Of a stretch of 64,000 nt of DNA, positions 1,036-53,010 are shown one piece after another. The notes under the pieces were generated by a model. The model worked only from the letters and a program-made list of their open reading frames with translations. It ran no database searches and was not told the origin of the DNA. Source of the DNA: Caulobacter flavus (GTDB lineage: Bacteria > Pseudomonadota > Alphaproteobacteria > Caulobacterales > Caulobacteraceae); the NCBI RefSeq assembly GCF_003722335.1, contig NZ_CP026100.1:2702001-2766000 (forward strand), written 5' to 3'. The number at the start of each line of letters is the position of its first letter. Within the stretch, counting starts at the first letter, position 1. A program made the translations under genes and the position numbers.

Positions 1036-1060
1036 TCTGATCCGTTACTGATCTGAAGAG

Positions 1061-1093
1061 CGCCCTCCGAGCTTCGGCTCGGAGGGCGTTTTT
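1061..1093 (+). terminator. Intrinsic terminator after TonB receptor
   Basis: A perfect 12-bp stem (CGCCCTCCGAGC with its complement) closed by a TTCG tetraloop is followed by five T. It lies 25 bp after the stop of the receptor gene. Confidence 0.9.
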
Positions 1094-1104
1094 CGTTGGG
1101 AAGG

Positions 1105-1320
1105 CCCCCTCAGTCGCTCCGCGACGGCTCCCCCAGAGGGGGAGCATCTGCGGCGTAGATCCTCCCCCTCTGGGGGATCGTTGCATAATGGGGTAAAACG
1201 AGAACGACTTTCCCCTTTTGATTCCGAACTGTTCTCGAACGGATTCTGGTCTGTTCTTCGACGTTCCGAATTTCGCAACAGTCCCCCTCTGGGGGAGGTG
1301 GCCCAGAGGGCCGGAGGGGG
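1105..1320. repeat. GC-rich palindromic repeat cluster, interrupted by a MITE
   Basis: The stretch starts with an arm of the form CCCCCTCAG-GTCGCTCCGCGAC-GGCTCCCCCAGAGGGGGAGC (1105-1145). It continues with the hairpin CCTCCCCCTCTGGGGG (1161-1176) and ends with CCCCCTCTGGGGGAGG followed by GGCCCAGAGGGCCGGAGGGGG (1283-1320). The same modules recur at 26021, 44698, 45362, 45449, 45520 and 52970. Here the central hairpin is split by the 116-bp element at 1172-1287. No gene is visible between the receptor terminator and the SDR stop. Confidence 0.75.
1172..1287. mobile_element. MITE-like element related to the IS5-family IS at 26.1 kb
   Basis: A 116-bp AT-richer insert has imperfect terminal inverted repeats: left GGGGGATCGTTGCATAAT, right (complement) GGGGGACTGTTGCGAAATT. 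The right end is identical over 19 bases to the right end of the IS at 26141-27271. It is flanked on both sides by TCT within the repeat CCCCC-TCT-GGGGG, as expected for insertion with a 3-bp duplication. It has no meaningful coding capacity. I infer a non-autonomous derivative mobilised by the IS5-type transposase. Confidence 0.65.
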
Positions 1321-1335
1321 CTCGCCGTCGGCGAG

Positions 1336-2091
1336 CTACAGCGACTGCCCGTCGTCCACCGTGAACACCGACCCCGTCACCGCCCGCGAGGCGTCCGACA
1401 CCAGGTAGAGCGCCGTGGCCTCCAGGTCGCTGGTGTCCATCAGCCGTTTCCTCGGGAAGCCGGCGACCAGCTTTTGTCCGCCCTCGCTGTCGAACCAGGC
1501 ATCGTTGAGCTCGGTGCGGATGTAGCCGGGGCACAGGACGTTGACGTTGATGCCGACCCGCGCCCACTCGCGCGCCAGGCTCTTGCCCATGTGGGCCGTG
1601 GCGGCCTTGGACGCGCAGTAGGCGGTGATGCCCGGCAGCACCTTGTGCGCGCCGATCGAGGCCACCAGCAGCACCCGGCCGCGCGCCTCGACGCCGGCCT
1701 TGATCATCCGCCGCGCGCCCTCGCGGGCGGTCAGGAACACGCCCCGGGTGTTGACCCCCAGGATCTTGTCGAAGTCCTCGATGGCGATGTCCAGCGCCGA
1801 GGCGCGGACATTGATGCCGGCGTTGGCGATCACCGCGTCGGGCGCGCCCCAGGCGGCCTCGACCGCGTCGTAGGCGGCGATCACCGAGGCCTCGTCCTCG
1901 ACGTCCATGGAGACGGCCAAGGCGGTCCCGCCGGCCGCCTCGATCTCGCCGACCAGGGCCGCCAGCTTGTCGGCGCGGCGGGCGGCGACCGCCACCCGGG
2001 CGCCGGCGCTGGCGGCGGCCAGGGCCAGGTTCGCGCCGATGCCCGACGAGGCGCCGGTGATCAGCACGGTGCGGCCGGAAAGGTCGGTCAT
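1336..2091 (-). CDS. SDR family NAD(P)-dependent oxidoreductase
   Basis: This 251-aa protein is a classical short-chain dehydrogenase with a Rossmann fold. The cofactor motif TGASSGIG is near residue 12, NAG near 90, the catalytic serine is in VASIG, and Tyr/Lys are in YCASKAA. The C-terminal TVDDGQSL resembles the substrate-loop end of 3-oxoacyl-reductase-like and sugar dehydrogenase SDRs. It is the last gene of a minus-strand run behind the GH97 and GH29 genes, so a sugar such as fucose or galactose is a plausible but unproven substrate. Its SD (GGGAG) lies in the 3' arm of a perfect hairpin that separates it from the GH29 gene. Confidence 0.88.
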   Translation of the reverse strand: MTDLSGRTVLITGASSGIGANLALAAASAGARVAVAARRADKLAALVGEIEAAGGTALAVSMDVEDEASVIAAYDAVEAAWGAPDAVIANAGINVRASALDIAIEDFDKILGVNTRGVFLTAREGARRMIKAGVEARGRVLLVASIGAHKVLPGITAYCASKAATAHMGKSLAREWARVGINVNVLCPGYIRTELNDAWFDSEGGQKLVAGFPRKRLMDTSDLEATALYLVSDASRAVTGSVFTVDDGQSL

Positions 2092-26140: not shown

Positions 26141-27271
26141 GGGGGACCGCTGCAATACGCCTCTGTAGGAGTGCTGGGGACGCGGAGTGGTCGTTCTGAG
26201 GCCTCCTTTTGGAGGTCTCAGGTCGATCGGGACGGACGGGTGGCGTGATCAGGCCGTCAGGATGGCGGCGCGGCGCAGGTTGAAGGCCATGGCGGTGAGC
26301 AGCACTTGGCCGGCGGCCTTGGCCATCCCCAGATAGCGAACCCGCGTCAGACCCATGCGGCGCTTCCAGGTGGCGAAAGTGGTTTCCACGGCGGCGCGAC
26401 GACGGGCGATCAGGTCGTTAAGGCGCTTCTGGCGATCGCTCAGGGGATGATAGCGGTTGGGGCGGCGCATCAGTCTGGGCTTCACGCCGGCCTGCTTGAG
26501 CCGATCGCGGCGAGCGTGGGTGTCATAGGCCTTGTCGGCGTAGACGGCCGCCTCGTCGCCCCGGATCAGGGCGTCGGCCGGGACGGTGTCGTTGACGTTT
26601 GCGGGGGTGGTGATCACCGCCCGCACCAAGCCCGAGCCCTGATCGACATTCACGTGGGCCTTGTAGCCGTAGGTCGAGCCAGACTTGCCCTTGTGCTTGG
26701 CGAAGGCCGCGTCGGGGTCCCTGGCCTTCGCCAGGGCATCGGGACCGCCCCGGGGACGTGGCGTGGCCGCCTCGATCAAGGTGGCGTCCAGCATCGCGCC
26801 CTGCTTGAGCACCAGGCCCGCGCCTTCCAACTGGCGATCCAGCTCGTCGAACAGCCGCTCGAGCAATCGCTGGCTCACCAACCGGTTACGAAACCGGCAC
26901 AGCGTCGTGTGATCGGGAACCGCGTCCTCCAGGCTCAGCCCCACAAACCGGCTGAACGAAAGGCTGTCGCCCAGCCGGAACTCCAGCTCAGCGTCCGATA
27001 ACCCGTACCAGGCCTGCAGCAGGAGCGCCTTGAACAGCAGCAGCGGCCGGTAGCCCGGACGTCCCGGGCCATCCTCGCGAAGACCCGCCAGGGCCTTCTC
27101 GAAGCCCGACCAGTCCACCAGCGCCGACACTCGATCCAACGCCGCGCTGCCCGCCCGGCGACCAGCGCCGATCTCTCCAAATCCAAGCTGGCCCGTCGCC
27201 TTCACCGACATCGCAATCCTCCCGCTTCAACGCCAAGGAATCACAGCCAGCCAATTTCGCAACAGTCCCCC
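26141..27271 (-). mobile_element. IS5-family insertion sequence (1131 bp)
   Basis: The imperfect terminal inverted repeats are GGGGGACCGCTGCAATA at the left and GGGGGACTGTTGCGAAATT (complement) at the right. It encodes one full-length transposase. It sits in the stem-loop of GC-rich repeats. The 3-bp flanks differ (TCT left, ACA right), so a target duplication is not conserved and a rearrangement between repeat copies is possible. Because G5/C5 also belong to the repeats, the outer ends are uncertain by about five bases. Confidence 0.85.
26249..27211 (-). CDS. IS5 family transposase
   Basis: This 320-aa DDE transposase appears intact. The DUF772-type N-terminal domain has RPLLLFKALLLQAWYGLSD and DHTTLCRFRNRL. 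The DDE core has MLDATLIEA (first Asp), AVYADKAYDT (second Asp) and RRRAAVETTFATWKRRMGL (Glu), and YGYKAHV lies between. GGGAGGA precedes the ATG at good spacing. No frameshift is seen, so the element could be active and could also act on the MITE at 1172. Confidence 0.95.
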   Translation of the reverse strand: MSVKATGQLGFGEIGAGRRAGSAALDRVSALVDWSGFEKALAGLREDGPGRPGYRPLLLFKALLLQAWYGLSDAELEFRLGDSLSFSRFVGLSLEDAVPDHTTLCRFRNRLVSQRLLERLFDELDRQLEGAGLVLKQGAMLDATLIEAATPRPRGGPDALAKARDPDAAFAKHKGKSGSTYGYKAHVNVDQGSGLVRAVITTPANVNDTVPADALIRGDEAAVYADKAYDTHARRDRLKQAGVKPRLMRRPNRYHPLSDRQKRLNDLIARRRAAVETTFATWKRRMGLTRVRYLGMAKAAGQVLLTAMAFNLRRAAILTA

Positions 27272-27295
27272 ACAGGGGGAGGTTCCTACCGCGTC

Positions 27296-52969: not shown

Positions 52970-53010
52970 CCTCCCCCTCTGGGGGAGGTGGCGCGAAGCG
53001 CCGGAGGGGG
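52970..53010. repeat. GC-rich palindromic repeat module
   Basis: CCTCCCCCTCTGGGGGAGG is followed by TGGCGCGAAGCGCCGGAGGG. It keeps the same layout as the copy at 1161/1283 without the MITE, and so shows the likely empty site. Confidence 0.8.

Follow-up and report, generated by a model that had tools for sequence, protein, structure and literature searches.

A MITE of Caulobacter flavus, present in many near-identical copies, has very probably been mobilised in trans by the DDE transposase of a resident IS5-family IS, which would direct both elements to the axis of a dispersed hairpin. Both lie in the window, that is, the whole 64-kb stretch of DNA that was analysed, within a genome of 5.66 Mb on a single contig. 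The near-identity of the copies, the ends and the target that MITE and IS have in common, and the empty sites are directly observed; the movement itself, and the mode in which the transposase would recognise a palindrome, we infer from these sequence comparisons.

The MITE, the resident IS and their borders

With its ends read as GGG...CCC, the MITE occupies positions 1174-1285 of the forward strand (112 bp), a placement based on the table of junctions of its 31 copies, in all of which the inner 106 bp have the same length; with ends GGGG...CCCC it would span 1173-1286 (114 bp). Its inverted ends are imperfect (GGGGATCGTTGC / GGGGACTGTTGC) and TCT stands on both sides, as the original prediction had read from the window, and it is flanked by two copies of the 13-bp block CCCCCTCTGGGGG (1164-1176 and 1283-1295), composed of target sequence and terminal Gs. 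The element is short, too small for a transposase gene and without one, multi-copy, and endowed with terminal inverted repeats common to an autonomous resident IS, which are the features of a MITE. A stable hairpin formed by the MITE itself was considered and found unsupported (fold z-score of -1.31 with DNA parameters, with 20 of 200 shuffled sequences folding equally well).

The full IS lies on the reverse strand at 26143-27269 (1127 bp with GGG...CCC ends) and is one of five copies that are identical across their inner 1121 bp, each with an open frame for a 320-amino acid transposase (26249-27211, reverse strand, in the window). The protein scores 288.9 bits against the NCBIfam IS5 model NF033581 (cut-off 140) and contains the domains DDE_Tnp_1 (PF01609) and DUF772 (PF05598); residues D142, D226 and E276 are invariant among seven aligned homologues. 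The right ends of the MITE and the IS have 17-18 element bases in common. The right 19 bases, AATTTCGCAACAGTCCCCC, had been proposed to coincide base for base with the right end of the IS (about 26141-27271), and they do, although the nineteenth, a fifth C, belongs to the target. The left end of the MITE, GATCGTTGCATAAT, differs from both IS ends, and since the MITE interior gave no match to the IS interior, the MITE is not a simple deletion derivative of the IS.

A search with the 94-bp core of the MITE recovered 31 copies in the genome at 99-100% identity, far above chance, which fall into four haplotypes (17, 8, 5 and 1 copies) varying at three sites. The terminal motif GGGGAYYGYTGC has 72 matches in the genome, compared with six for a control pattern, and 71 of them are MITE or IS ends; apart from the single stray match, at position 5092199, no other element family in the genome carries such ends. 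One end of copy L025 is short of one G and hence escapes the motif. Relative to the tail of the hairpin repeat, as classified by regular expressions, 13 copies point right, 16 left and two neither way, with no clear bias. Among 75 Caulobacter genomes the MITE is present in this one and was not found in the other 74, and exact-pattern scans returned no record from genome_contigs, a collection that possibly does not include the genome itself, and no copy of the core from viral contigs. Such a restriction to one genome fits a recent burst.

The border between element and target is hidden by the runs of G at the left end of the element and of C at its right end, which recur in the target. The borders proposed initially, 1172-1287 (116 bp, five-G ends) with a 3-bp TCT duplication, could not be retained, since 12 of the 36 MITE and IS copies lack the required fifth G or C and have only three or four Gs or four Cs; 1174-1285 or 1173-1286 fits better. 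Four-G ends accommodate 35 of the 36 junction pairs (L025 fails) and imply duplications of 4-5 bp, perfect in 33 of 36, while three-G ends fit all 36 with duplications of 6-7 bp, perfect in 34 (the exceptions being L020 and L041), and two-G ends likewise fit all 36 with 8-9 bp, perfect in 34; single-G ends fail in L036. The duplication length differs by 1 bp between copies. GGG ends are favoured because the 11 bases up to TGC then equal those of relatives with an unambiguous duplication (L088, 9 bp; L177 with L192 and L195, and L182, 4 bp), and because copies L144 and L150 of genome G217 have a common third base unlike that of the target. The true duplication is 4-9 bp long, with 6-7 bp the likeliest length, and masked by the palindrome. 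The IS5 subgroup is characterised by a YTAR 4-bp target duplication, which is absent here under every reading of the ends. Two of the 36 copies have unequal hairpin loops, namely MITE copy L020 and the window IS copy L041 (26129-26145 / 27267-27282; CTCT-like on the left, ACA on the right), and recombination between copies would explain their unequal flanks.

A palindromic target and its empty sites

Thirty of the 31 MITEs and all five ISs split a palindrome of the form CCTCCCCC-NNN-GGGGGAGG, or a near variant of it, at its axis. Exact intact copies number 127 in the genome and make up about 0.04% of its length; one of them, at 52970-52988, is the intact hairpin that had been pointed out near position 52970. 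At the window MITE the left arm (CCTCCCCC) lies at 1161-1168, and the right arm (GGGGGAGG), together with the leftover tail of the dispersed hairpin repeat, at 1291-1321, both placed with the help of the congener G033. The orthologous site in G033 holds an uninterrupted hairpin with matching flanks, and thus an empty site, which is what the original prediction had suggested looking for and which, with the 30 of 31 copies at the axis, bears out the claim that the element splits a GC-rich hairpin. REP elements proper are tagged REPs with an associated RAYT transposase; we call the target hairpin REP-like for its dispersal and symmetry only.

G033 was the only one of six congeners compared that has the same hairpin at the window site, the other five having other sequence between the same genes. 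In these five (L100-L104, orthologous to window positions 1050-1345), two loci carry a palindrome of the CCCGCGAAAGCGGGGACCCAG type and the remainder different hairpins, including other target-type copies; the site thus holds other repeats in all five, and the hairpins themselves are subject to turnover. The one MITE copy outside a hairpin (L036, L128; near 2168427-2168538 of its genome) has an empty site, with both flanks joined, in six of ten other genomes (G001, G002, G005, G008, G033 and G074), and its flanks found no match in the remaining four. In G033 this site falls in a gene for an MHYT-domain hybrid sensor histidine kinase. The empty sites thus cover two MITE copies, this one and the copy in the window.

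On the mechanism that we consider the best explanation, the transposase would bind the common GGGGAYYGYTGC ends, and the IS or the MITE would be inserted at the axis of CCTCCCCC-NNN-GGGGGAGG, with a short target duplication, most likely of 6-7 bp. Given the terminal Gs on its left and Cs on its right, each inserted element leaves a complete C-loop-G hairpin at either junction, and the target repeat is therefore doubled rather than destroyed.

The presence of 30 of the 31 copies inside the hairpin repeat might equally be expected if the 116 bp were a longer variant of that repeat and no insertion had taken place. The empty hairpin in G033 refutes this reading, to which we give practically no credence: the copy in a non-hairpin site has six empty orthologues, and the hairpin occurs in 66 of the 75 genomes of the genus (in 1 to 282 copies where present) as opposed to one of 75 for the MITE, so that the outcome named beforehand as fatal to an insertion, ends that form part of the dispersed repeat in many genomes, did not materialise. 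It is very unlikely, too, that the hairpin bias arose by selection, with insertions elsewhere lost and those in intergenic repeats persisting. One MITE copy does lie in what is a coding stretch in G033, which indicates that other sites can be hit, but the insertions strike the axis of the palindrome, a location more specific than intergenic DNA, and many of the homologues from other genera are likewise centred on unrelated palindromes.

The agent of transposition might also have been a different one, if the MITE had been spread by an IS5-family relative of the transposase that has since been lost or resides in other strains, and the resident IS merely had the same ends and target. The left end and the unrelated interior of the MITE would be accommodated by such a history, and related ISs with somewhat different ends are known from other genera; we nevertheless regard it as unlikely, given that, one stray match aside, nothing else in the genome carries GGGGAYYGYTGC ends, that the right ends of MITE and IS agree and the same target is chosen, and that both elements look recent. 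The original view of a non-autonomous element with the ends of the resident IS is thus upheld by the common ends and target, the 31 MITEs, the five intact and identical ISs and the empty sites, and mobilisation by the resident transposase remains the reading that we prefer.

Relatives of the IS: palindromes and a conserved GANTC

Homologues of the transposase are sparse: at an E-value threshold of 1e-60 they were detected in 11 of the 390 family genomes and in 5 of 385 sampled across the class (the own genome counted in both), with a further 25 loci in genome_contigs and plasmid records among the matches listed. A plasmid search with L086 returned only two Rhizobium records, both already in the sample. 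Viral contigs contributed one locus at 32% identity (single protein) and five at 33-36% (alignment), which were left out of the analyses, and a search of viral contigs with the end pattern gave none. The congeners G005 and G002 contain damaged ISs whose ends equal those of the Caulobacter hibisci and C. endophyticus elements.

The sites of 26 homologous insertions with both ends resolved were examined by joining the flanks and recording, close to the axis, the 8-bp stem with the best pairing. The 11-mers at the ends were chosen by eye, loci lacking one end and repeated sightings of the same element were excluded, and in the seven of 26 insertions without a detected duplication the flanks were joined whole. 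Perfect 8-bp stems were obtained for 15 of the 26 insertions, compared with 0.4% of control windows taken from these flanks, and at least seven paired stem bases for 17 of 26, compared with 5.1% of controls; the Rhizobium sites among them, which belong to a single repeat family, do not count as independent. Nine insertions have six or fewer of eight bases paired, a level met by 28% of controls: L076, L155, L162 and L166 (60-76% identity; four of the 18 at 60% or more) and L085, L087, L088, L167 and L168 (five of the eight below 50%). The palindromes differ between hosts, with CTCCCCC/GGGGGAG in Phenylobacterium, CTTCTCCCC/GGGGAGAAG in Rhizobium and Brevundimonas, and TCACCCGC/GCGGGTGA in Bradyrhizobium. 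IS relatives in other alphaproteobacteria thus show a tendency toward palindromes as well, of different sequence; recognition of shape and of sequence cannot be separated here, because the palindromes have in common a core that is rich in C on the left and in G on the right. Of 23 more distant relatives from the same phylum that were scored (31-35% identity; four further loci gave no row), eight have TTAG or CTAG duplications. In Brevundimonas L089 the loops are TTGA and TCAA, reverse complements of each other. In L081 of C. endophyticus, two IS ends abut across a short spacer in a tandem-like arrangement, which fits reinsertion into the rebuilt junction hairpin.

Of 29 closer relatives, the resident IS included, 27 carry the sequence TGATTC, which contains the CcrM site GANTC, at 27-28 bp inward from the transposase-proximal end. 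In the resident IS, GANTC lies at 27238-27242 (reverse strand, offset 27), and in the relatives (L073-L094, L144-L166 and L203) TGATTC is likewise located upstream of the transposase start. In the first set of elements with at least 47% identity, a limit chosen after the data had been seen and in a sample containing several near-copies, 24 of 25, the resident IS among them, have the G of TGATTC at a distance of 27 or 28 bases from where the 11-base end begins, the exception, L088 (49%, Nitrospinaceae), having none. Of four elements added, L094, L147 and L203 (damaged, 46%) have TGATTC at 27, and L092, with a truncated transposase, has GATTG in place of GANTC. Across 14 representatives the whole of TGATTC is invariant and the spacer on either side variable, the invariance being partly by choice because a site at 27 was a condition for selecting these rows. 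The conserved GANTC is absent from the homologues of SAR324, Nitrospinaceae and Marinomonas, and none of the 23 distant same-phylum relatives has GANTC at 27-28. Among seven distant elements that are, or are labelled, alphaproteobacterial, four have GANTC at other distances (L148 at 31 and 54, L158 at 45, L159 at 41, L167 at 36), and L087, L160 and L091 have none beyond the end itself. The background frequency is 66 GANTC in the window, or about one per 970 bp; the 112-bp MITE contains two, against about 0.1 expected at this rate.

No GANTC lies 27 bases from either end of the MITE. If the IS moves the MITE, the motif is therefore not needed in cis, and a role in transposase expression is accordingly favoured over one in end binding. 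In C. crescentus, GcrA is a proposed activator of methylated promoters with YGAKTCG, an extended motif that was not recovered in Brevundimonas in the same paper (PMC7987155). TGATTC matches YGAKTC, and the last base of the extended motif is not conserved. A precedent is IS10, which is controlled by Dam (PMC10073500), and in Sinorhizobium meliloti methylated motifs other than GANTC are reported upstream of an IS5-family transposase gene (PMC11711589). In the literature consulted on CcrM or GANTC together with transposase or transposition, a body of text that mostly leaves aside subscription journals, we found no IS under CcrM control.

On these grounds the CcrM site is a possible candidate for a cell-cycle switch on the transposase gene of the parent IS. 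More tentatively, and with rather more doubt than confidence, the IS might be seen as a member of an alphaproteobacterial IS5 branch that combines homing to palindromic shape with a CcrM-gated transposase promoter, the MITE riding along. Such an IS would recognise the shape of a palindrome over its sequence and home to any dispersed palindrome of its host; CcrM, perhaps with GcrA, would confine transposase synthesis to a set window after passage of the replication fork, as Dam does for IS10; and the MITE, which has no site at that position, would ride on the cell-cycle-gated transposase. Should the conserved GANTC indeed control transposase expression, IS10 under Dam would have its counterpart in this IS under CcrM.

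Comparison with known systems

The IS and its MITE provide a clean case of two elements that keep to a single strict palindromic target, complete with empty sites, in a genus with easily handled laboratory strains. If every one of the unrelated palindromes is tolerated, one can ask whether a DDE transposase senses the shape of DNA, in the form of a cruciform or a lagging-strand hairpin, or only a CCC/GGG core. Titles and abstract openings of the literature on Caulobacter MITEs, IS5 elements and palindrome-targeting ISs contained no description of this element. Like the bacterial MITEs described in PMC10969869, the MITE is short, has inverted ends and many copies and is mostly intergenic; unlike them, as far as that account goes, it strictly targets one palindromic repeat at its axis. 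The Caulobacter CIR repeats are similarly about 110 bp long, intergenic and GANTC-containing; they are set apart, by their published description, in being marked as without terminal inverted repeats and as conserved across alphaproteobacterial species, whereas the MITE is found in one genome of 75 (PMC2229807).

The IS resembles the IS5 family (NF033581) in its single-ORF DDE transposase, its ends starting with GG and its length of about 1.1 kb, and differs in having a palindromic target instead of the YTAR 4-bp target. Its closest parallel in targeting is with the type 1 REP-targeting ISs of Tobes and Pareja (2006; PMC1525189), in which every full IS copy is reported to lie in an extragenic palindrome, in ISRm22 at the axis, with three of the nine copies showing imperfect direct repeats; here five of five ISs and 30 of 31 MITEs lie in the palindrome. 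The strict type 1 cases reported there belong to the IS3, IS110 and IS4 families, and the IS5-family ISNm1106 is only a partial one (4 of 7 and 7 of 14). Because REP-targeting ISs are already known, with ISNm1106 as a partial case from the IS5 family, the IS and its MITE are ordinary in kind; the strictness of their target is unexpected for an otherwise recognisable type of element.
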